NCBI GenBank assembly: GCA_027596075.1
Contig: JADGJC010000139.1
Location: forward strand, 35,864-99,863
Reading direction: 5' to 3'
Source: Rhizophlyctis rosea
Lineage: Eukaryota > Chytridiomycota > Chytridiomycetes > Rhizophlyctidales > Rhizophlyctidaceae
Length of the DNA: 64,000 bases
Shown: one piece after another, positions 2,449-55,699 of the stretch
Layout: every line of letters begins with the position of its first letter
Position numbering within the stretch: the first letter of the stretch is position 1
Notes under the pieces: generated by a model
What the model saw: only the letters and a program-made list of their open reading frames with translations
Database searches by the model: none
Told to the model about the DNA's origin: nothing
Program-made: the position numbers and the translations under genes

Positions 2449-3085
2449 ATGTTGAGTCCCATGCCATCCGTATCGAACGGCGCGCTGAACGGTACCACCA
2501 GAATATCAAGAGAGAACGTGGTAAATTCTGGAAACGAAGGCTGGACAAGCATAGGCGGCCATATCCTTACATTTTTCAATTTGAAGCAGGGTCAGCAAAG
2601 CAAGGACGCGGGACGTGAAGATGAACTGCTGCAATTGCTGCAACAGGTATGTTCTGCAAAGTATGCAGCGCATCAAACACTTCTGACAGACCCAATTAGT
2701 TTCTGGCACATATAGCAACTCATAAGTACGAAGAAGCACTAACAGTCTCCAGTCAGAGTGTGTTCGCGTCAATTTCTTCATAAATCACGCGTTAGTATGC
2801 TAACCGGCGTGCTATCGTTCGACAGTTTTGAAACTCGACCCGTCCAATGGACTGATTGCAGAGTACCAGCCTGTTCTAAGAGAAAGATTGACTCAGTTGG
2901 CGGAAGGATGCAATGATGAAAATTCCGATGATGAGGAGGATGACGAGGAAGGGGACGACGAGAATGACAATGATTCTGCGGATGATGGATCTCAGACCGA
3001 CGAACATAGCAGTGACGATGATAGCGAGGACTCTGATAGCGACACAGAATCGGAAAGTGCACCACATTCAGACGCTGAGCACTGA
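2449..3085 (+). CDS. ERICH2-like protein with acidic C-terminal tail
   Basis: A small spliced gene. Exon 2449-2645 ends in a Leu/Gln helix (DELLQLLQQ). After an intron to about 2699 comes FLAHIATHKYEEALTVSSQ; a second intron (about 2757-2824, with a TGCTAAC branch site) joins it to ILKLDPSNGLIAEYQPVLRE, followed by a tail of about 60 residues rich in Asp, Glu and Ser. The 'FL..I...KYE.AL..SSQIL.LDPSN....E..P.L.E' pattern resembles the C-terminal TPR-like helices of glutamate-rich protein 2 (ERICH2); this is from memory of the family and is tentative. The start may lie further upstream (ATG at 2319), and a possible 69-nt frame-preserving intron at 2521-2589 cannot be excluded. Function unknown. 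Confidence 0.5.
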
Positions 3086-4784: not shown

Positions 4785-5354
4785 GTTGAAGTCTTTTGAT
4801 TCTTGTTTGTGATTCTTTGTGAGTTGCGACCGAATTGCGTGGGAAAGATGACTGAGCAGCCGAAGAGAAGCAGAGGTTGCTATTGGTTGGTCACGTCTCT
4901 TCTGCGTGTGAGAATATTTGTGAGGGTGAGATGAGGAGCGCAGTCACGTCGTGGATGATATGAAAATTCTACACGCAGGATCGACCAGTATGTCTTCTTT
5001 TGGCATCCACAATTGGTCGGACATTCGGACAGAATAAAGCATGTGACTTCAATTTGTATTCATTTGAAATTAGATGCCACGTGGTTTTGTAAACTTGCAA
5101 CCACCTTCCCACATGGACGAATTTTAGGCTCTTTCGACTGCGCTTTCTGAGCCTTTCTCCTCCACTATCTTCGCCTCAAAGTTCCCATCGGTTTTGCCAG
5201 CTTTTGTTGTCACTTCTGGCCTAGATAATTGACTCTCCGTTCGTTACTCACTCACTCACTCACTATCTGCAAACCGGCCAACCACATAATTCCTAACCTC
5301 CTGCACTACACGGTAAACAACACACTCTCACGGTACCCCCAACGAAGTGCAAAC
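4785..5354. promoter_or_regulatory. Divergent intergenic region between RAD51 and DHX8
   Basis: The 570 bp between the start codons must hold both promoters. A palindromic CCACGTGG (5077-5084), the class B bHLH E-box, is the only clear element I see. No MluI-type ACGCGT box was noticed. The last part, from about 5229, is a pyrimidine- and CA-rich leader of DHX8. Confidence 0.4.
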
Positions 5355-9117
<3,763 letters not shown>

Positions 9118-11135: not shown

Positions 11136-12963
11136 TCAACTCCAGTCGCGGTCAGGCAACACAATCGGCGCGACCAGAGTCCATCTGTCCAAAAAAGAGA
11201 TGTCAGCATCATGGAAAGCAGAGAACATGCAAATGGTTGTTGTAACTTACGCATACAGCACCAAAACAACCCAGCTAAAACATGAACACATGTCAGATGG
11301 TAGTTGAGATAGTACGATGAAGATTCAAGTGTTGGACATACCTTGATACCACTTTAACCCATACAGCCGCCATGCTCCTTCCGACTGCAGCAACAGCCTT
11401 GCTGAGCGTTTCAACTTCACCAGTCTTCTCCACAGTTTGCCACTATCATAATGCCAAAATGGTTCAGAATCAGCATTAATGCATGGAAGTTCAGGAGCAG
11501 CTTCCGGTGGAACAACTCACGTTTGTGATCAACATCGCCAAGTACATGGCCGCAAGCGCAAAGATAAGATGGAAGAAAGAGTAGTTGTACTGCACTCCAT
11601 CCTGCTCATCATCCGCCGGACCATTCTCATCGTCATCATTATCCAAAGCCCGACTCGACAATGCACCACTGTCGACCGCATCACGAACCCGGTCGCTGTT
11701 CCCCGTCAATGGCAAACTGGATTCATCTGATTTGTTGAGCATAGCATACGCTGCTCTAGACGTGCTGTACGCGAGCGCAAGGAAAGTAAACAAAGCTCCA
11801 AGCACAACAGTGGTCGTCTGCGTCTTGCTTCCCTCATTAATGGGGTTGCACTTGTTGTTGTCGTCCTCAACCGGTTCGCTGGTGATGGCACTCGCGATCA
11901 GGTAAGTGGAGTAGATGGCTACCATGGCGGCTTGTGCGAGCCCGCTCTTTGGGTTTGCTTCCTGGATTTGTGGCCAGATTGCTAGTGCGCACACACAGAG
12001 GCAGAGAATGAGGTTGAAGGAGATGAAGAATTGGTTGAGTTTGCAGGCGGAGGAGCCGAAGTAGGCGTATAGGACTCCGGTTAGGGCTATGGCGCCAATC
12101 AAGGCGCCGAAAGTGATGATCATGAGGAAAACTAGGTAGGATTTGTCTTCTGTTGTCTCGTAGCGTTCTGCATGGAAGATGTTATGGAGGATGTGACAGG
12201 AGCACACAGTCCATTCCAGACATACCCAATAGGTTCTCACTGAAAGTGTACGCGAAGTCAATCAACAAGACGATTTGGATCAGAATGAACAATGCCGCGC
12301 CAGGCATGTCGACTCCTTTCGCCCAACCCATGAAAAAGCCGTTCGGAATGAAGAATGCTAGAACCGCCAGCCCCACCCAAGCGAGTAGCTTCCAAAACCA
12401 AAAGCCGTTCTGGATGGAGGACCGGATGTCTCGACTGCTTTGCACGTTGATCATGAGGAGGGAGAATAGGATGTGCTGCGAAGGTTTATGAGCATTGGAA
12501 ACATAGTCATCAAACAAACTATATTTAGTCCTTACGAAGAGTGACGTGGCAAAACATATGCGGTAAACCGCTAGAACACCATAGCACGACCCTTGCGGAC
12601 AACTGATTTTCAGATATCCATGTGTGATTTCCCCAAGTTTTTCGTCCACCCATTCCGTGGACATGAGCTGCAGAGCAACGAAGGTGAATAAACAAACGCA
12701 GTCTGCAATTTGAGACCATATATTCCGTCCCTACCCAAGATATTGTTGCTGTCAATAGAAACATGAGTGCATAGCCAACACGGGTAGCTGTGGAACTAGT
12801 AAACAGAGTTGTGTTATAAATAGGCACATTAAACAGTATGCACAGCTGACGGGTTGTTTCAAGCCCACCTTCGCGAGCCGCATATGTTGGCCGCACAGCT
12901 GCACGCAGCTTTTCCGAAGCAGCACGCTAATTGCGTTGCGAAGCAGCTAATTAAACCCCCCAT
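11136..12963 (-). CDS. Serine incorporator family membrane protein (SERINC/TMS1)
   Basis: Multi-pass membrane protein of the SERINC/TMS1 family, linked to serine-derived lipid synthesis or lipid scrambling in animals and yeast. Eight exons (12963-12869, 12795-12735, 12667-12536, 12475-12226, 12167-11521, 11442-11342, 11274-11251, 11184-11136) give 452 residues, near yeast Tms1. The N-terminus has the family's Cys-rich block (ACCFGKAACSCAANICGS) just before the first membrane helix. Many hydrophobic segments follow, including LFILIQIVLLIDFAYTFSE, and the C-terminus ends WTLVAPIVLPDRDWS, the family's hallmark ending. A variable acidic loop (DNDDDENGPADDEQDG) lies before the last two helices. 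One internal exon is only 24 nt. The gene diverges from the USP48-like gene 275 bp away. Confidence 0.96.
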
Positions 12964-22480: not shown

Positions 22481-23471
22481 ATGGCTGAACAGGTGTGTTG
22501 ACACTACTGACGAGTGTGAACATTTAGAGGGTGGTCATGATGCATGCAGAGGATTTCCAGTTTAGCAGAAGGCGGGTAGAGAACTTGACGAGCACGAGCG
22601 GCGAGACGGTCCGGTCGGAATTGCACCTCATAATACGTCGGCAGCGAAATCACCAAACTCGAGAAGCGAACGTTGGACGAGGTGGAAAGGGCCCGGAATG
22701 GAGATTTGCCCTGAATCACACACCTTCAATGCGAAGACGCTGACAGTCAGACCTGGAATTAGGATAAAGGGTGGAACCGAGGTTGGAGATCATGAGCCGA
22801 GTGTTCACATAGCGGCGGCAAAGGGAAATTGGGACTCGTGCGAGGGGATGAACTGGACCTCTGCATGCATTATGGACCTGGGGCTCTTTATTTATGTCGC
22901 AATTTACTCATTGGCAACCACCTCCCCCAACAGTCCGAAAAGGCTTTCCAAAAGCAACTTGGCCTCTTCACCAACGCCAAGGTGAAGGTCGGCCGCAAGG
23001 CCACCACCAAGCGCTGGTACCAGGACGTCGGATTGGGCTTCAAGACTCCCCGTGAAGCCATCGAGGGTCACTACATCGACAAGAAGTGCCCCTTCACCTC
23101 CGCCTCCATCCACATCCGTGGCCGTATCCTTACCGGTGTCGTCGTCTCCACCAAGATGAAGAGGACCATCGTCATCAGGAGGGAGTACTTGCACTTCATC
23201 AAGAAGTACAACCGTTACGAGAAGAGGCACAAGAACTTGGCTGCCCACTTGAGCCCGGCGTTCATCGGTGTTGAGGCGGGGGATGTTGTTACTGTTGGGC
23301 AATGCAGGTGGGTCTTAGATTTGGGATTATCGGGATGGGAGTGAGGGTTCCTGGAACATTTCGCTGATCATTATTTGGTTCTACAGGCCCATCTCCAAGA
23401 CTGTCCGCTTCAACGTCCTTAAGGTCCAGAAGCAACAGGTTAAGGGCGCCAAGACCTTCGCTAAGTTCTAG
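22481..23471 (+). CDS. RPS11: 40S ribosomal protein uS17 (RPS11)
   Basis: Component of the small ribosomal subunit. Exons 22481-22492 (only MAEQ), 22934-23307 and 23387-23471 join in frame to 156 residues, the normal size. The sequence is highly conserved: [60 protein letters not shown], and [18 protein letters not shown] across the second intron. Codon use is strongly C/G-ending (AAG, ATC, CGC), as expected of a highly expressed gene. The first intron is 441 nt, far longer than the window's typical 60 nt. Long first introns are common in fungal ribosomal protein genes; I searched this one for a box C/D snoRNA and found none convincing. Confidence 0.98.
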
Positions 23472-42261: not shown

Positions 42262-45200
42262 CTAGTCATCATCAGACCCATCGTCAGATCCGTCATCATC
42301 ACTATAGTCATCTTCGTCCTCTTCCTCGTCATCCACGGTGTCCTCCACCTCCTTTTCTTCTTCTACTTTCTTCGTTTGTGGGCAGATATGGTTGTATTTC
42401 TTGGCGTGCTCTTCGAGTCGCTGTGTTCTGCAATTGGAGCCCCACCAGCAGTCTGGACGATTGACGAGTGGTCCTTTATGATTTCAAATTAGTATGAGTT
42501 TGCTGGACGAAAATCTGGGGTCCATGGACTTACCCGGGAGAGTCCCGTCCTCACGTCCCGACTTCACAACATCATACAACATATCACTCAACATTAAATC
42601 GGCACAGTCGCCGCAGATGGGACTCTGCATAGTCAAACTAGTGACCGGTTGCCAGCGCTTGACTGTATGAAACATAACTTCAGCATCAACCGACTTTCGT
42701 CAACAATCATCTCCAAGTAAACAAATCAACTTACGATAACTCTTCTCCTCCACCACCTTCTCAACATTCTCCTCCCACACGCGACGAACCGTCTTCTTCA
42801 TCGCAAACAATGCACCCTTTGCAATCGCTTGTTCGAACGTGTTGCCTTCCAAGACCGCATTGGGCAGCTTTCCAACTCCGAACTTTTCTTCATCAGTGCC
42901 AGTTTTCTTCTCCTCATCGTTCGCAGGGCCGTATCGTTTTGCATACTCGGATACATGTTGAACAGATTTCCGGTGATTGCAGAGGAAGCATTGTGATCGG
43001 TTGCGAACGAGGACGACGTAGCGGATGCGGACTTGAGCGGCGTTGTAAACAATGTACTGCAAGGAGAGAGTTTTAATGGCTTGACCTAAATAGGAAAACG
43101 GATTAGGCGGCCCTTACCTCGTTGTGCTGGAGATATCTTTCCTTGTCTCTTCCATTGTCTCCTTTTCGAAGCCTACTTCTGACCATCGGGTACCGGGGAA
43201 CTTGCACCTACAGTCCCGCAAGTCAGGAAAGAACCATTGCTTGCGTTGAATCAGTGTCAACCAACTCACCCCATCTTCACACAAGACCACTTCTCCACTT
43301 GGCTCCCATTGACCAAGACCCTTGGTGCTGTCAAAACCATCTGGAGCCTTCTCCATATATTCTGCATCCTCCCTCTCGTATGGCTTGCCGACTGCTACCT
43401 CGCATAGCAAGAGACATGCATAAGCGTCCGTTCCGCTGTTGGCCATGTTGGAGTATGCGTAGCCGATGGACTTGGCGAAGGTGTCTGCGAAATAGATCCT
43501 ATGTGATGGTAGAATGTCATTGATGAGTCGTTCATCAAATGAAATGCAACTAAGCGGTAACTACTTACCCTTTACCAAACATATAGCCCTGTTTTTGAAA
43601 AGAAAAACACGCCAACGCGCCATGATGAGAAATTTGCGGATATTCTCGGCATAATGATGCAAACATACCGTAACAGGCGCCTCAATAGGTGCAACTCTCA
43701 ACCCCTGCCTTAAAATTCCCATAAAGTTACTCAATCTCGATCCATGCCACAACAACTTTCTCCCTTCCGTTTCTTTGAAATCCGCAAACCGTTCGACCTC
43801 TCCTGCTCTATCCGCTCGGAAAAGGGACACAATGTCGTAGTTTTCTCGGAAATCGTTCCCACCTGCTGGTTCAGATGTGGGACGAATGAATTCGTCAATG
43901 AGGGCGAATTCATCGGGGTGGGATGATGAAGGGACAGGAGTGAGTGTGCAGGACAAGCCGTGGGCGATGTAGTCCAGGGGGTTGAGGGTGGTGCGTCGGG
44001 CGTAAGCGGCAAGAAGGAGGTTGGAACCGGAGTCAAGGTACATTAGGCTTGTCATCTGAATCATCATGCGTTTCATACTTCAGTACATGTCAAGACAATG
44101 GCCTTATGCGACAATCAAGGTCAAAGTAGCGCTCAAACTCACCTTAACCATCTCTTCGTTCAACTTATCCAACCTCAAAATAGGTTGAATCCCACTCCTA
44201 GCATCATGCTTCGCCGGAACCAAGGAGTAGTACTTGTTGCTCAAATCCACTAACGTGTACTTCAAAGTCTTGATGGCATTCACATCCGGAACCAAAGTCT
44301 TCTTGTTCTCCTCATCCAACTCCTTCACCTTGTCCCGAATCTCCAAGAGCACATCATATGCTTGTTTCACAACCTTAGGTTCCAGGTTGCCCAATGGTAG
44401 ACCGACGTCCGCTTCGTTGATCGCTCGGTTGAAGGTGGGAACGTTGGTGATGATTTTCATGAAATCTTGGACTGGTGAAGGGAGGTTCGATTTGGGAGCT
44501 TTCAAGAGCAGTTCTCCGTCGAGAGGTTTGACGGCGACGTTTTTGCGTGCGACGATCCTTTGAGGAATGTATTTTCCGGGTTTGGGAATAAAGGTATCGG
44601 TGCCTCGGTCCTTCCCTATTGACGAGTATCCATTGTTAGATTCGCTTCATAATCTCCATTTCGAGTTCTTCTTACTTACAAGCATTGCCCGTTTTTGATT
44701 TGAAGATCTTCTCAAATTCTTGGACGCACTCCTCCTTCGTGTTGTATGGCGTTTTCTGGAATACGATGCGTAAGGATCAATAAGAGGTCTATCAGTGCAA
44801 CCATTCCGTTCGCACAACGTACCTGGAACATGCCAATTTCGCCCACAGCTCCCCACCTTGTCCACAGGACATAGAGTTCCTGAAGGCGGTGATACACAAC
44901 CTGGAACTTGTAGAACATGTTGACGCCGTACATCCCCTTTTCAACATCGGTCTTCGTCATTAACATATCATACACGTCCTCCTCGCCATCCTCATTCGTT
45001 TCCCGCAAAACATTTGCCACGTCACTTTTCCAGCCAATGTTGGGGTCCACCGGCACCGCCTTGAGCTTGTCCTCCTCATCGAGCTGCTCAAGAGTCATCT
45101 TCCGAGTCGCTGCAAGCCTTTGCCGTTGCCGCAATTCCTTCCCTGCTTCTTCAGCCAAGATCTCCTCGCGACCTCTGTCAGCGTCATTGTTGATATCTAT

Positions 45201-48200
45201 GTCTGGTACGGCAGTGGCCCCTTCTTCCTCAATGTCCATCCGATCCACCACAAGAGCCTCCTTACTCTCCACATCCCGAGCCCCAAGCTCCAGCAACGCC
45301 TTGTACATTTTCTTGCTCCACTGCTTCCACGCACAATCAATTGGCCGTTGACCATCCATATCAGCTCTCTGTAGATCCGCTCCCTTCTCAACCACAAGTT
45401 TCAGTAACTCAACATTCTCGAAAGATGCTGTTTCGCGAGGAGTTACAATGTGGTGTAAAACGGTTTGACCATTGATGTCCGTTGCATTGACATCGACCGG
45501 GATGGTATGGTTCAGGATCATGCGGAAGGCTTGGACGGAGTTGCTGATGGCGCATTTCATCAAGGTGGTAAGTTGCTTAGGGTTGACTTCATGAAGTGAG
45601 CGAACATTCGCATCCGCACCCATGCCAAGGACCTGCTTGAGTAAGTCCAGATCCCCCTGTTCCACCGCATAGTCAATCAATGTAAGGCCGGTGACGTTGT
45701 CGTGTTGATCGACATCGGGTTTGCCTTTCCCTAAGAGCTCCAAAACGTTGGTCCTCTGCGCGAAGAACGCGATTTGGAAAGCGCTGCGCTTCTTCTGTGG
45801 CTCCACCAGGTTGACGTCGGCTCCATGGTCCACCAAGGACTTGATTTCCGCCAAGTTGTTTGAGGCGAGCGCCATATGCAGGGGAGTTTGTTTGGATTCG
45901 GGATGGATAGGATCTGGTTTAGCGCCGGCGGCCAGTAATCGCTCAATCAACAGGTTTGACCGTCCCTTATCTGACTTGACTGTCTTGCCCAATGCTTCAA
46001 ACAACGGAGCGACCAACACCTTCCTCTCCTCTCCCTTATCCGTCACCTTCAGCATGGACTCGTCATTTACGTTCGCGCCCCGTTTAATCAGAGAAATAAC
46101 TATCGCAAAGTGCCCTCTTCGAATCGCCGAACCCAAAGCAGTGGTCCGTAACCCAACGTCCAAATTTGGAGATGCGCCGCGTTCAAGGACCGTTTTGACA
46201 ATCTCTTTGTTTCCAGTCTCCACCGCCCTTCTGACCACCGACACGTTCCTCCCGGCATCATCAGAAGTGACGTCCAATCCAGCGTCGAGCACTGCCGTAA
46301 TTGTTTCCACAACCTTGCTCGTAAGTGCATACCCAACAACGGATACCCCTTCCCCATCAACCTTGTAATCTTCCGCCTTGCTTCGCTCAAGCATCCACTT
46401 GACAAAAGCTGTCTGCCCGTATTTGGCAGCGTAGTGCAAGGGAGTTCGCCCATGTGCATCTGGTCGGGTGATTTCTGCCTCCAGACCAGCACCCAACAAC
46501 AAGTCTGCAATTTCGAGACTGTACTCTTCCCAAGCGATACGGTCGGATGGCGGGAAATCGGCGGCGATATGGACGAGAGATTGTTGCGAAACTGGGTCCC
46601 GTCGGTGGAGGACTTCACGTGACGACTTGGAGATGAGGAGCACTGCAAGGTGATATTTACCTGCGGAAAGCATGGTTACTATGGATTGACGCAATGATGC
46701 ATACCATATGCTAGCTTACCAGTGCAGAGCGCATCATGAACAGCATTCATGAGCTCTTGACCTTTTTCCATTATGATGTACGCCAAGCTCATGAACTTGT
46801 GCATCAGCGAGTACTTGAATATGGAAAGCTTAGTGCCTTCCGCCTGAGTGATGTCACGCATGACTTCGGCACCTCGGTTTGCCAACATGACGGCATAGTC
46901 AATGTGCCGATACAACAAGGCGACTTGCAAAGGTGTATTCTGTTATGGATTTGCATGAGAAAAAATTTGATGATGGTCCAAAGTTCAGTTTGACCCACCT
47001 CGTCACGATCAACAGCGTCAATCCCAGCTCCACGTTCCAATAGATACGAGGAACAAGTGAAAGCGCCCATCCTCCCAGCGTAGTGCAAGGGGGTCCTGCC
47101 AAACTTGTCCGCAAGATCCAACTCAATGCCCGGCAACTCCACCAGCCAGCTGAGCACTTCGATGGGATCACCCTTGACTTTCCCAACCTCCTCATGTCCT
47201 TCCCACTTGCCCGTATGCCACTGTGCTTCATCACTGCGTTCATCCATAATATCCATCACCTCCTTCAATTCCCCTTCTCTTTTCTTCCTCTCGATCTCAA
47301 CTTCGGGAGCAGCAAGCCATCGTTCCAGCTCCTCATCTCGACCTCCATCTACTGCCTTCCAACGTTCTTCAATCTGCTTGCGGCGCTTCTCCGCCCTTCC
47401 TTCAGCATCCAATCTTTTCTGATATCGTTCATGTCGCTTCTTCTCCTCAGTTGCAATGTGCATCCGTGGGATCAGGCCGGTGTCAATGAACGTGATATGG
47501 AGTGCGGAACGACCTTGATAATCAAGGGCGTTGATTGGTGCATGATGTTGTACGAGAAGTCGCTCGATACGAAGTGAGGTGTTGATTGCGTGTTTGGACG
47601 CTTGGACAGCAAGGTGCATGGGTGTTAGGCCGTGCTGAAAACCAGAATGTGGTAAGTCAGAATTTGGCATGCACAACAGAGCATCTTTCTACGCACCTTC
47701 TCTGTTGAACTCGGATCAGCACCAGCCTCCAACAAAGCCTTTACACACTTCGGATCATCATTTTGCTGTGCGTAACCGATTCAGTAAATACCAATCAAGT
47801 CACAAAGTCGATACCAACAGGTTACTCACCACAGCATAATGGATCGCCCACATTCCGCTCTCATCCTTCACATTCACCTGAGCACCAGCTCGTACCAAGA
47901 TTTCTACACATTCTTTGCTCTTTGCTTTCACCGCCCACAATAGTGCGTCGGTGCCTTCAGCTCCCTTCATTGACACATCTGCTCCACCACGAATGACCTC
48001 GTTAAGAATGTTCTCATCTCCTTTATAGGCAGCAATCATCAACACTGTTCCCTTCCTCTTGTTGACCAAGTTGACGATTTCCCCCAGTGTCCCCTGTGCT
48101 CGGGCACATTCAATAAGATACATCGCGACATCGCGTAAACCCGCTCTCGCCGCAATCATCAGAGCTGTGTCACCGTCAGCGTTTTGCACCGCCAAAGGAG

Positions 48201-51200
48201 CCGACCTCTCCTTGTCAGAATCGACAACGCATTTCACCATCTCCAACACCTCATCCTGAGTTCCAACAGCCGAAACAGCCAAATGGGCCACTCCCATCCC
48301 ACTCTTTGCAATCCGACTCAAATCGGCATTCTTCTCCACAACCCGTCGAACCATCTCCAAATCCCTCCGTGTAATGAAATGCATGACTGGAGTAAGGCCG
48401 TCCTTCAACGAGATGTTGACCGCTTCCCCAGATGTCTTGGCAATCATGGCGCGCACAATCCGTCGAGAGGCAAAGTTCCATCTTGTTGCAGTATCTGCGT
48501 CTTGCGGAGTAGCTTCCGCTTGTGCGTCCCGTGAAGGAGGTGCTGGCGCAATTCGAACCGCCTTCAAAAGTGGTGTTTCCATACCATCGTCTCCGCGGTC
48601 AATCAACTCATCCACATTTGCTTCTTGCGTCAGAAGTGCAGAAAGGGTAGATTCCCAACATTCGTCATAAGGCTTGGACACATACTTGACGAAGGCGGTG
48701 GAGTTTTGGGTGGCGACTGGTACTTCCAGGTCGCTGGGCTTATCGAGGGCAAGGTAAAGAGCAGAAACCGGTGACTTCCCGCCAAGAATGTTGACATTAG
48801 CTCCATTGGAGCAGAGGAACTGCACAAGGGCATAGCAGCGGCTGTCCGCAACTGAAATGCAACGATCAGAAATGACAGATCCTGGGCAGCATAGACGTAA
48901 AATCATCAATCAACTTACCAAAATGTAACATGGAATATCCAACTTCTGCTGGCTCTGGCAACTTGTTCGGAGTGGAAAGGCTTTCCAAAACGTTTTTAGG
49001 AAGTTTCACCGTGGCGTTCAACGCCGTATCCGCACCGGCATGGGCAATCACATGCTTCAAGAATTCGATCTTTCAACCAAACAAAATAAAGTGAGTATCC
49101 ACCACATGCGTAACCATTTCCCCTCGGTTTTGAATTGAAAAATACTTACCAAGGTGTCCCACTGATATTCAACAGTAATTTCAGCAGGCTGTGCTGGCTT
49201 CACTGCCTGTCCATAATAGTATTGGTTGTTCTTGATATTCGTAACCTTCTGATAGCTCGCAGTTTTCTGCTTTTCGACCGCGTCCTTAACCACTTGGAGC
49301 AAGGCGGTGTAGCCATCGTCGTTGTATTGAGCGACCTGGGGGAAAGAACAAGTTTGGTACGTTCCCTTCATGCGGAACGAAACGATCATTCGGGCAACTT
49401 ACCATATCCTTAATACTAACACCAACAACCCTATCCACAACCTCCCACACCCGAGCAAAATCGGCTTTCTTTTCAAGAGCCTTTTGCTGTCCCTTGATGC
49501 CACCATCATAAATCCTCGGCCACGAGTCGGTCGTCTCGTAATCATGAATATGCGCATCCGCTTCCAGAGCGAGAGTCCCCAGATACTTAATGAGCTGGAA
49601 GCCATTAGTGGAAACGTCCACACCGTGGTTGAGGAACAGGATCACCAAGTCGTGGCTGTTGAACCTCATGGCGACATCGAAAGGTGTTTCACCGGATTTG
49701 TCACGTTGGTTGGGTGTTGCACCTATATTTTGAGATGGTGAATGTCAACAAGGAGGTTCACATATCGCCTTGAACGAACGTAAAGATGCAATTGCAAACA
49801 AAACAATCGAGACTCACCATGCTCAAGCAAAATCTTCCCAATCTCAACCCTCAACTCCACCAAATCATCCTGCCAAAACCCTTCCTCTACCTCCTGCTGC
49901 TGCTGCTGACCATCTCCCACATCTCCACCATTCGCAACCTCCTTCCCCTTCCCTTTCCTGCCCCCCGGCCTCTCAGCAACCTTCCCAACCTGCTCACACA
50001 ACAAATGCAACGCCGTCTTCTCCTCCAAATTCCCAACCTTCGGATCAGCCCCCCTCCCAACCAAAGTCCTGGTCTTCTGCACCAACCGCTCCGCATCATA
50101 CCGCGTCGTCGGCAACGCCTGTGCACAATAATGAAGAAGCGTCAAGCCGTCCTTGTCACGGAAGTTGGCTTGGATATCCGCTTTAGAGAGGAGTTGGTTC
50201 ACGATTTTCATGTGGCCTTTCAAGTCCGCCACCATGAGTGGGGTGAATTTCCAATTGTTTGTGGAATTGAGTTCGGCGTTGCCGTAGATTACGAGGAGGT
50301 CGACAATGGAGGGCCAGCCGTAGCCGGCTGCGTAGTGGAGGGGACGGTTGTCGCTGGAGTCGCCCTTTTCGGCGTCGGCGCCGCGTTCGAGGAGGAGTCT
50401 GACGATGTCGAAGTGGCCGCTTTTGGCGGCGAGGGTCATGGGTGTTCGGCCCATTTTGTCGACGGCATCCATGTCCACTCCTGGGTGATCCAAGAGGACC
50501 TCGACACATGCGAGGTGGCCCATCCGCGCCGCGTGATGAAGAGGTGTGGATTTGAGCTTTTTGTCGAGCTGGCTTGCGTTGGCACCGGCTTCCAGAAGAG
50601 CTTTCACAACCTCCTCGTGACCGTAATGGGCGGCGAAGTGCAAGGCCGTGTACCCATCTTTCATCAATGTGTAATCTGCCCCGACACCCATGGCAGCAAC
50701 AAGGATGGGGACGTTCTTATGCCGGCCTATCAGTGAAAGAGAATTATACCATATTCAGTTTGAGCAGCCTATTTCCCCCCTCTTCATAAGAACCAACTTG
50801 GTAACTCACCATACTTAGCCGCCAACTGCAACGGTATAAACTTGAACGCATCCCCAACTTTCACATCAACACCTTTGGCAATCAACCACTCCAACGGCGC
50901 CGTTTCACGACACCCCGCAGCAAAATGCACAGGCTGGCGTCCAAAATTATCCGGCTCCGTCGTCTCCGGAGCTGAAAGTGCGTCATAAAGTTCCGCAAGT
51001 GCCGTCGTGTCCGGGTTGATTGCCGCCATTCTGGATTGGTAACCAATGTGAGTAAGGAAACAAACAACATCCATGACAAGGAAACGGCAACCGTAATAGA
51101 AAAGGGAGAGGTAAACTCACTCCAAAGGCGTAATCCCCCCATTCCCCGTAGCCTTCTTCAACACACTCGGCTTCCTAAAACTCCCCAACGTCTCCCCACT

Positions 51201-53316
51201 CTTCAATTTCAACGCCTCCTCATGCAACCCATTAAACCCAAACCCACTCCCCAAAATCTCAACAACGACCCTCGCCAATTCCACATTCCCGCTCGCACAT
51301 AACTCGTATACTCCAAAATCACCCAAAACCTCCTTAACACCCGGCCACTCCATGATGAGATATTCGATCATTTCCTTCGTGAAGCGGGGGTCGCGGAGAC
51401 AGTGTTCGAGTGTTCGGTGGAGGTCACTGTTGCCGCCTGGTGCTAGGCGGAGACGGGTGTTACCCGATATAGGAGGGGCGGTGTAGTCCGTGAAGGGGTC
51501 GACGGAGGTGTAGTTGTAGAACGCGTTGTTGCCTTCGCGGTTACCACGGGACTCGTTGACGGTTTTGATTCGGTGACCGAACGTGCGGGCACCAACGTAC
51601 CCCGTCGACGCGGTCTTCATATACTGTTCCGGAGCGCCTACACGAGATTGAGAGAGAGATTCTTTGAGGACCTTAACAGCGCGGAGGTCGTTGCGTAATA
51701 TAGCGTTCCTCAACGCCGTGTCGTGGGGGAGGTCGGGTTTACGTCCGTACACGTATGCGCACATTCGTTTAGTTTCTTCCACACAGGATTGGAGGAGGGT
51801 GTAGTCTCCTGTTGCGACTGCGCGGTTGAATTCGCGGGCGGAGCAGAGGAGGCAGCAGGATGTGTCGGGGGTGTGGGGGTGGGTGGGGTCGTGGTCGTAG
51901 CCGGTGTAGGTGGGTACGTCCTTTCCGGCGAGGGCGGCGATGCGGGATTGGCGTTCGGCTTCGCGCTCGGCGGCGAGTTGGGCTTTTTTGCTCAGTTTTT
52001 TGACTTTCGGGGCGGCGAGTTTGCGTTTTGAGGGTGCTTTGGTGCTACCACCACCGTCTCCGGAAGCCTTCTTCTTCCGTGGAGATTTGGTCTTCTTCAC
52101 CGGCGACCCATCCTCTTCACCTCCATCCTCATCACCCTCCCCCTCCTCTACATCAGACCCACTCTTCTTCTTCCTCTTAGGACTCCCACCACTACCACCA
52201 CTCTTCCTCCTCCTCTTCTTGCCCCCCTCCTCCTCCTCATCAACCATCCAAGCCATCTCATCCCCATCCATGTACGTCTCATCTCTCTTCAACGTCACCT
52301 TCTTCTTCCCCTTCCCAGTCTTGGTCTCCCAATCTTGAATCAGTAACACATCAACTTCGGCGGCGATGACCCACTCGTTGGCGTCATGCGGGAGTCCTTC
52401 CCATTTGATTAAGTACTGTTTTTCGCCCTGTGGGAGGGTGCACAAATCAGGGGCATTGGTCAATAAGACAATCTACTACCTACACTCGTCCTCAACCCCC
52501 CCAAACTCCCACAAAACTCAACCCACACCAACCTTGCGACTCCTCTCATCCAAAATCTTCTCCGCATACGTCGTATCCTCGTCACTCTCATCGTCAGAAT
52601 CTTCATCTTCATCTTCATCCTCGTCATTCTCGTCTTCGGAATATTCCTCCTCAATTTCACCATCGTTGTCTGCTGCGGCGCGGTGAGACTCGGCCACAAC
52701 GACTTCGACGCTATGTTTTGGGAGCTTGCGGGGGGAGACTGGATGTGCATTGGTGGGGGGAAGGATGGAATGAGGAAAGGAGAGGGGGTTAAGTCATGGT
52801 TGACGGGAGGAGGGCATGGAAGGGTAATCAACTGCCCACACCCCCGCCCACACACGCAATCCACCAATCCCACCAACTTCCACCTACCATCCTGCGAACT
52901 ATACGCACTATCGTTCCTCCCACCACCATCATTCCCCTTCTCCTTCTGCTTCCGCGCAGCGACAGCGGCGGCGGCAACAGGGTACTTCGCAGCCAAACTA
53001 ACGTCATCATCTTCATCCTCCTCCTCACTCGCTACAGCCACCACACTGGACCGCGGCGACGTCTTAGGCGTCCGCCCCGCACGCTTGTAAGTGTTCTTCA
53101 ACTTGTTTTTGGGCGTGGCGAGGGGAACGTCTGTGTCGGGGAAGTCGAAGGGGTTTGGCTGGTGGGAGGGGATTTACGATGAGATTGGAGGATGTAAACA
53201 AATGAGCCGTGACGGGAGAGACTTACAGCCTGCGAAGACGACCCCGCGTCCACATCGACCACATCGACAGATGACGCGGGTGCTGCCGTCGCTTGAGAAC
53301 GCGTAGTTCGCGGCAT
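42262..53316 (-). CDS. Giant chromodomain-ankyrin-WGR-PARP protein with PBZ-like finger
   Basis: Poly(ADP-ribose) polymerase of about 3138 residues. Twenty-three exons join in frame: 53316-53227, 53158-52888, 52738-52533, 52427-51121, 51030-50810, 50726-49818, 49722-49403, 49335-49150, 49069-48919, 48851-47830, 47765-47697, 47634-46999, 46939-46720, 46678-44823, 44755-44680, 44615-44143, 44055-43669, 43588-43569, 43498-43270, 43207-43118, 43056-42735, 42677-42534, 42473-42262. Order: Ser/acidic N-terminus; chromodomain-like segment (about 176-220, YAEKILDERSRKGEKQYLIK then WEGLPHDANEW); Lys-rich linker (KRRRK, KKTKSPRKKK); about 25-30 ankyrin repeats (about 630-2290, such as GYTALHFAAHYGHEEVVKAL); WGR domain (about 2410-2535, LWTRWGAVGE); PARP regulatory helices (about 2557-2690); catalytic domain with the H-Y-E triad (LLWHGS, GKGIYFADTF, LQHNEYIVYN), typical of polymer-forming enzymes; Cys/His segments; PBZ-like finger; Asp/Glu tail. 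Confidence 0.93.
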
Positions 53317-53963: not shown

Positions 53964-55699
53964 CTATTTCTTCTTCTGCACCTGCCCAGCCTTAAAGTAC
54001 ATAATATCCCCATCAACAACTACATACTCCCTCCCCTTCTGACTGTACTTGCCCGCAGCCTTGACTGCCGCCTCGCTCCCCAACTCCTTCAAATCATCAT
54101 ACTTCATAACTTCAGCCATAATAAACGCTTTCTCAAAGTCCGTGTGAATGACACCAGCAGCTTGTGGTGCTTTCGTGTTTTTGCGGATCGTCCAGGCGCG
54201 GACTTCGTCGTCTCCGCCGGTGAAGACTGTGGGGGTGGAGGTTTAGTTGGTGGAATGGAAAGAGGGGGGATGATGGGAGAAGAGGGAGACTTACAGTAAA
54301 TCAATTGAAGGGCGTTGTAACCAGCAACGATGATCTTAGGCAAAACACTGGTCACGGGTTGCGGGATCTCATATTGTGCCTGCAACTTCTTCAACTCCTG
54401 TTCCCGCTCGTCTTGGATCATGCCGGAGAGTTTGTTTTCGAAGGAGCCGGAGTAAGGGATGAGGAGGTCGCCTGGGTGGTTGGCGTCGATCCAGGCTTTG
54501 ATTTTGGGGAGCCACTTGTTCTTCTTGCGGACGTAGTCGCGTTCTGAGAGGTTGCACTGTTTGTGATTTGGTCATCAGTTTTCGCCCTTTGATAGTAGTA
54601 GCGGCAGCGAGCAGGAGCGGACAAATATAGCACGCAACCCAACCAACCCAAGCAACCCAACCAACTCATCCCCAACAACCCCATTGAACATCACATGCCC
54701 CCTCCCCTTCTGACTGCGCTTGCCCGCCTTCCCTCACACAAACACACACACAAGCGTAAACAAAACATATGCACAAGCACACATCTCCCCTCACTTCCCC
54801 AATCAACGCCATCCTCCAGAACAAGAGCAAAACGCAGCACAACTCACCAAGTATACGACGGGCTTAGCGGTGATGAGTTGCAAAGTGTTGATAATCTCAA
54901 TCTCCTTCCCGTTCCACTCCCCATCCCTCGCATCCTTCTTATCCTCACACACCCACTTGGCAACCTTACACAAAATCTCATACTCCTCCTTCTTCGCCTT
55001 ATCCGCCGCACTGCCCCCCTTACCCAACCGCTCCACCTCCCTCCTCTTCCCGTCAACAGTCTTGTTCAACAACTCCTCATCCTTCAACCGCAACTCGTTG
55101 TGGATAATTTCCAAATCACGCACGGGGTCCAAGTCGCCCTCGACGTGGATGACGTCGGCGTCGTCGAATGCACGACAGAGGTGGAAGATACCGTCGACGG
55201 CACGGATGTGGGATAAGAAAGCGTTGCCGAGACCTTGGCCTTCTGCGGCGCCCTTGACGAGACCGGCGATGTCGATTACTGTGAGGTAGGCGGGGACTTT
55301 GGAAGGGGGTTTGTAGAAGTCGCAGAGCCAGTCGAAGCGGGGGTCCGGGACGGCGACGCGGGCTTCGGAGGGGTCGATGGTACAGAAGGGGAAGTTCTGT
55401 GGTGGGGTAGGGGCAAGGGTGTCAACCAGGAGTTCCTCTCTGGAAATGTTTAGCGAAGAGTGACATACCTCAGAAGGGACGGCACTGTTTGTAAGAGCGT
55501 TGAAGAAGGACGACTTTCCGACGTTGGGAAGACCAACAATACCCTAAAAACACCGAATAAACAAACATAAGTTTGTGCACTGTGAAAGTGATCTAGGCTC
55601 GCCTGACCAGCCCCAAACGCACAAACCCACCATCTTCAAGTTGTTACCAGGCCGACCCAAAAGGGGCTTCTCGACGGTAGCGTTCTTCTTTGGCGGCAT
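53964..55699 (-). CDS. OLA1: Obg-like ATPase OLA1/YchF
   Basis: Conserved P-loop ATPase of the TRAFAC class that binds ribosomes and affects translation and stress responses. Exons 55699-55631, 55543-55469, 55396-54848, 54556-54295 and 54226-53964 give 405 residues (human OLA1 is 396). Key parts: [20 protein letters not shown] (P loop; exon 2), [34 protein letters not shown] (switch region), [17 protein letters not shown], and the C-terminal TGS-type domain [20 protein letters not shown] and [13 protein letters not shown]. The normal G4 NKxD motif is replaced by NLSE, the family trait that explains ATP over GTP preference. The third intron is 291 nt, longer than the others. Confidence 0.97.

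Follow-up and report, generated by a model that had tools for sequence, protein, structure and literature searches.

In a 64,000-nucleotide stretch of the genome of the chytrid Rhizophlyctis rosea (Chytridiomycota, Rhizophlyctidales; contig JADGJC010000139.1, positions 35,864 to 99,863; hereafter the window), a single gene of 23 exons encodes a poly(ADP-ribose) (PAR) polymerase (PARP) in which a module related to the C-terminal half of CHFR follows the catalytic domain. The protein is a fungal form of the Clade 1A PARPs, which combine ankyrin, WGR, regulatory and catalytic domains. Its additional module, composed of a CHFR-type cysteine-rich domain (CRD) and a PBZ zinc finger, lies directly after the catalytic domain and was absent from the initial annotation of this DNA. 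The arginine of the WGR motif is missing, as in all fungal relatives examined. We favour the view that the protein is probably a chromatin-tethered PAR writer provided with its own PAR reader in cis. The features of the gene are the following, in window coordinates:

42262..53316, minus strand: whole gene, 23 exons, 3127-residue protein (own exon search and deposited protein)
52311..52583, minus strand: chromodomain (residues 173-228), split over exons 3 and 4 (Pfam, E = 4e-11; HP1 structure 1KNA, E = 2.5e-7)
51345..51629, minus strand: block with the core SRG.REGNNAF (residues 456-550), exon 4 (profile built from its own hits)
45264..50942, minus strand: ankyrin repeat array (residues 655-2335) spanning exons 5-14, with 21 clear repeats and 5 weak ones (Pfam and iterated repeat profile)
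44602..44987, minus strand: WGR domain (residues 2428-2512), exons 14-16 (Pfam, E = 2.1e-16, and genome search)
44847..44849, minus strand: codon for Ala2474, where PARP1 has its WGR arginine, R591 (alignments)
43969..44496, minus strand: PARP regulatory (helical) domain (residues 2548-2694; Pfam, E = 1.9e-17)
43003..43911, minus strand: PARP catalytic domain (residues 2714-2925) with H2769, Y2803 and E2907
42547..42972, minus strand: second half of the CHFR-type CRD (residues 2936-3053)
42474..42533, minus strand: intron 22, phase 1 (exon search and comparison with CHFR)
42376..42462, minus strand: PBZ, the PAR-binding zinc finger (residues 3062-3090; Pfam zf-CCHH)
42262..42375, minus strand: acidic C-terminal tail (sequence)

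A CHFR-type module behind the catalytic domain

The C-terminal module matches CHFR both by sequence and by predicted fold, the second half of its CRD and its CCHH-type PBZ being homologous to 2XOC. On the C-terminal piece, the Pfam model zf-CRD matches with E = 5.5e-8 and zf-CCHH with E = 9.3e-7 (29.1 bits against a cut-off of 22.7); in the whole chain, the values become 9.3e-6, at the cut-off, and 2.5e-4 (21.4 bits), just below it. One CxxC pair (residues 2930-2933) stands just ahead of the CRD and a second one lies at residues 3031-3034. The ligands C, C, H and H of the finger display PBZ spacing, with R-P-D-C-W-W-G-S-N-C at 3063-3072 followed by H3080 and H3086. Compared with the strict consensus [K/R]xxCx[F/Y]GxxCxbbxxxxHxxx[F/Y]xH (as given in PMC4030884), the finger carries W at the first F/Y position and T-Q at the two basic ones, and the CHFR of R. 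rosea departs from the consensus at the same places. Intron 22 is identical in position and phase to an intron in the CHFR gene of the same genome; counting from the codon that it splits, the finger has its first cysteine at residue nine. When the C-terminal piece was folded alone (mean predicted local distance difference test score, pLDDT, of 70, and below 50 at its PBZ end), CHFR was among the matches of the fold search. In a larger 678-residue model, the PBZ end reached a pLDDT of about 84-88, and the 50 entries listed by the fold search are all PARP catalytic domains, CHFR not being among them.

The module is thus kin to CHFR, with two differences: the first part of the CRD is replaced here by the single CxxC pair, and the Pfam scan of this chain gave no FHA or RING match. 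We infer that the transfer went from CHFR to PARP; by parsimony, an ancestor of these fungi would have gained the C-terminal half of CHFR, CRD and PBZ together, behind the catalytic domain. For a wider CHFR tree bearing on the origin of the module, protein searches gave three CHFR-type proteins, or the query itself only. In the CHFR locus of R. rosea (C258), an FHA- and RING-like part can be read upstream of the point at which the deposited protein (P0121, 308 residues) starts. PBZ matches above cut-off were found at five further places of the genome, namely CHFR at C258 and the loci at C206, C222, C367 (three PBZ) and C308, one of these last proteins having ankyrin-like sequence.

To follow the module among relatives, the best 120 of 192 proteins found were analysed. 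Thirty-eight rows were taken as fungal by source name (chytrids, Mucoromycota including Endogone and Umbelopsis, and Entomophthora), and the 82 others include rows without source name; rows are proteins and not species, with several genera present twice or more, and the query included the CRD-PBZ, which may favour relatives carrying it. By script, both CxxC pairs are present in 35 of the 38 fungal rows and in none of the 82 others; in P0032 both are visible in the alignment. The PBZ ligands CCHH were detected in the same way in 33 fungal rows and in none of the others, the fungal rows without PBZ being P0005, P0010 (a record marked partial), P0025, P0029 and P0060. In a maximum-likelihood tree of the WGR-to-catalytic region (122 rows, three PARP1/2-type rows as outgroup; a quick search with no bootstrap and few outsiders), the fungal rows form one clade with a support of 95 in the Shimodaira-Hasegawa-like approximate likelihood ratio test (SH-aLRT). 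The protein falls among ankyrin-WGR PARPs such as those of Dictyostelium and Paramecium, separately from the enzymes of PARP1/2 type. The sister row of the fungal clade, P0065, has a long branch, possesses the WGR arginine and is devoid of CRD-PBZ.

Two further ankyrin-WGR-PARPs carry a PBZ-like finger upstream of the catalytic domain, P0071 at residue 2074 of 3675 and P0111 at residue 796 of 2438. The two cases raise the possibility of more than one fusion between PBZ and this type of PARP.

A Clade 1A PARP with a chromodomain

The initial annotation had assigned to a single chain a chromodomain and an ankyrin array together with WGR, regulatory and catalytic domains, and had proposed a profile search as a check. 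On our own 3122-residue model, Pfam bears out this composition, with matches to Chromo (E = 3.1e-8), WGR (2.1e-16), PARP_reg (1.9e-17) and PARP (3.8e-54) as well as to several ankyrin models, and the order, which it had suggested seeking in other chytrid genomes, recurs in other fungi. Against its estimate of 25-30 ankyrin repeats, the iterated profile gives 21 clear and five weak ones. The catalytic triad H-Y-E is intact in alignment with PARP1 and in 38/38 fungal rows.

Ankyrins and PARP are shared with tankyrases (Clade 4). The exclusion of a tankyrase in the initial annotation was nevertheless correct: the Pfam scan gave no SAM match between ankyrins and PARP, and WGR and the regulatory domain stand in that place. 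With respect to PARP1, PARP2 and PARP3, the protein lacks the WGR arginine and has in addition ankyrins, chromodomain and PBZ; no PARP zinc finger or BRCT match was obtained. The Clade 1A enzymes (for example C. elegans PME-5 and those of Dictyostelium and Paramecium) show the same succession of domains, an ankyrin array being followed by WGR, by the regulatory domain and by an H-Y-E catalytic domain. The R. rosea protein also shares with most relatives listed a block located before the ankyrin array, with the core pattern TG......[YF]G...R....SRGGREGNNAF. The Pfam scan gives no model there (residues 456-550). An iterated profile detects this block in 102 of the 120 Clade 1A relatives, ciliates and animals included, and in 28 of the 38 fungal rows; it may be a signature of the family or a fold that has not been named. 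What distinguishes the fungal rows from other Clade 1A members is the CRD-PBZ after the catalytic domain and the absence of the WGR arginine; the R. rosea protein has a chromodomain as well.

The architecture had been presented as undescribed, which is in part incorrect. Clade 1A was defined by ankyrin, WGR, regulatory and PARP domains, with fungi included (Citarelli et al. 2010, PMC2964712), and the same set was named 'Clade 1-ank' (Perina et al. 2014, PMC4245714), so that the ankyrin-WGR combination is ruled out as a novelty. On the other hand, the open-licence PubMed Central matches listed contain no description of a chromodomain, or of a CHFR-type CRD, on a PARP. PBZ and PARP on one chain have been reported in Amoebozoa, Filasterea and lancelet, the proteins being those of Dictyostelium, Entamoeba, Capsaspora and lancelet (Perina et al. 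2014); here, in contrast, the PBZ is C-terminal and joined with the CRD of CHFR.

The chromodomain is real. Its Pfam score improves from E = 3.1e-8 in our model to 4e-11 with the deposited splice, and its best sequence matches among solved structures are CBX5 and HP1 chains. Aligned with HP1, the three positions of the methyl-lysine cage read T, W and L, so that one of three is kept; in the six other chytrid rows, the W is likewise present and the third position is F or Y. Eight of the 38 fungal rows carry a Chromo annotation, compared with none of the 82 others, and an iterated profile, itself derived from its own hits, detects the domain in 17 of the 120 rows, all fungal. Among N-terminal pieces scanned with Pfam, those of Umbelopsis (2.5e-5), Phascolomyces (5.4e-6), Apophysomyces (3e-5) and Chlamydoabsidia (7.9e-5) gave matches, only that of Phascolomyces being above the curated cut-off. 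The Mycotypha piece gave E = 0.1 and that of Mucor velutinosus no chromodomain; these six pieces were drawn from the nine Mucoromycota rows, Endogone apart, that have a chromo-like profile hit.

Judged from these residues, methyl-lysine reading by this copy is doubtful. We give slightly less than an even chance to the possibility that the domain is a degenerate protein-binding fold that does not read methylated histones, chromatin targeting being ensured by other parts of the chain. The cage residues and the fading of the domain in Mucorales (none in P0035, E = 0.1 in P0044) argue for it; Endogone, with W, W and Y in the cage columns and a Pfam score of 4.5e-13, argues against it, as does the conservation between two R. 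rosea assemblies, in which the chromo block is 67% identical, above the ankyrin array (57%). Such a degenerate domain would be compatible with our preferred explanation of the protein.

Used as a query against the genome, this chromodomain recovered its own two exons and nothing else. The genome holds 38 chromodomain matches, several in frames above 350 residues, perhaps retroelement integrases.

The WGR domain and the activating signal

The third letter of the WGR motif, R591 in PARP1, is Ala2474 in the alignment with PARP1. This arginine is replaced in 38/38 fungal rows (G in 11, A in 8, S in 6, D in 6, P in 3, and Q, T, K and Y in one each) and kept in 77 of the 82 other rows, as well as in the two WGR-PARP paralogues of R. 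rosea, by our own reading one SAP-type and one BRCT-type. In PARP1, PARP2 and PARP3, alanine at this position abolishes DNA-dependent activity, and in PARP2 and PARP3 it reduces DNA affinity to about one quarter, DNA-independent activity being unaffected (PMC4081085). The response to DNA breaks proposed in the initial annotation therefore becomes doubtful as a direct one.

In the explanation we prefer, the chromodomain, the charged N-terminal part and the ankyrins would hold the enzyme on chromatin and on its partners. The PBZ would bind PAR, either the enzyme's own or that made by the two other WGR-PARPs of the genome, and once bound would keep or activate the enzyme there, PAR being extended or spread in a feed-forward manner. 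The enzyme would not be switched on directly by a DNA end; the break signal would be supplied by the two other WGR-PARPs. There are precedents: PAR activates human PARP2, which forms branches (PMC6089979), and PARylated PARP1 is bound by the PBZ of CHFR (PMC4741567). A bolder version, which we put forward tentatively and consider somewhat unlikely, is that an early-fungal PARP lineage changed its trigger, losing the WGR arginine and taking over the PAR-reading module of CHFR, so that the activating input would no longer be a DNA break but PAR, together with chromatin.

Several observations weigh against this explanation, besides the chromodomain cage described above. Of the 38 fungal rows, 33 retain the WGR tryptophan and 5 have F instead; at the position of N567, Asn occurs in 31 of them, compared with 35 of the 82 others. 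In human cells, PARP1 R591A still formed foci, though weaker ones, and XRCC1 foci were lowered only moderately (PMC7515702). Since the tryptophan and the N567 match are mostly kept and R591A foci persist, the WGR is better viewed as lacking one coupling residue than as dead, and on residue conservation it may remain able to bind DNA and to communicate with the helical domain. The loss of the arginine and the gain of the CHFR module fall on the same branch, and count as one coincidence and not as repeated evidence. Finally, the PBZ may serve only retention or turnover.

The kept tryptophan, the N567 match and the R591A foci also speak for a break-sensing PARP, as proposed in the initial annotation, in which the WGR would bind DNA ends and release the helical domain in the manner of PARP2, with the CHFR module only helping to retain the enzyme at the site. 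All three domains concerned (WGR, helical and catalytic) can be recognised, the model of the helical and catalytic part agrees with PARP1 (fold search of the 678-residue model), and the ankyrin relative PME-5 of C. elegans is damage-induced and chromatin-associated (PMC2964712). We nonetheless hold this alternative to be unlikely, given the uniform lack of the arginine in the fungal rows, the effect of alanine there in PARP1, PARP2 and PARP3 and the retention of the arginine in the two other WGR-PARPs of the genome.

Quite unlikely in our opinion is that the CRD-PBZ works as a self-restraint or turnover module, binding the enzyme's own PAR and then folding back or recruiting partners, so that the automodified enzyme is held or removed and not activated. 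The CRD comes almost directly after the last catalytic strands (exon 21), and the PBZ of CHFR binds PARylated PARP1, CHFR stability being controlled thereby (PMC4741567); the chain having neither RING nor FHA match, any ubiquitin link would however need another protein.

The PARP-like repertoire of R. rosea appears large: at exon level, the PARP catalytic model matches 27 times with E up to 0.001, and many of these matches lie on contigs other than those of the three WGR genes. A search for HPF1 gave no match, its control likewise being without any match.

Gene model, neighbours and significance

The gene is real and single. An exon search made without relatives (genome of 44.1 Mb in 634 contigs) gave 23 exons on the minus strand from 53316 to 42262, and the deposited protein HDV00_001875 (P0001; 100% identity to the query over the region searched) is given without a single mismatch by 23 exons of the window with GT-AG introns, so that the bounds and exon count of the initial annotation stand, its length of about 3138 residues being 11 off the deposited 3127. 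After choice of the last acceptor, our model has 3122 residues and differs from the deposited protein only at junctions 2/3 and 3/4. Introns 8 and 22 end in AAG instead of C/TAG; for the last exon, the 60-nucleotide intron ending in AAG was retained, and it agrees with the deposited protein and with the CHFR intron. That neighbouring genes were run together by annotation, as the size of the gene and its 23 exons might suggest, is extremely improbable and was ruled out: ankyrins and the first part of WGR share exon 14, the last catalytic strands and most of the CRD share exon 21, the domain order is repeated in other fungi, and the next frames upstream resemble something else, an OLA1/YchF GTPase.

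This last name, for the frame 54104-55543 (minus), was given by eye, as were those of the frames 5229-8945 (plus), presumably a DEAH RNA helicase, 11494-12730 (minus), presumably a Serinc-like membrane protein, and 22796-23341 (plus), presumably the ribosomal protein uS17. No PARP-related neighbour was seen among the window frames read by eye, a reading made without family search, and Rfam gave zero matches in the window at gathering scores.

A PAR writer and a PAR reader module are thus joined on one chain across many fungi, the kingdom in which PBZ could not be found according to a 2014 survey (PMC4245714). The CHFR-PARP fusion can be placed on the fungal tree, and it joins two proteins whose interaction in human cells is mediated by PBZ and PAR. 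These enzymes also constitute a natural experiment on PARP switching, as the very arginine mutated in studies of human PARPs is missing in every fungal relative examined. If the trigger has indeed changed, they would provide a natural feed-forward PAR amplifier on one chain.

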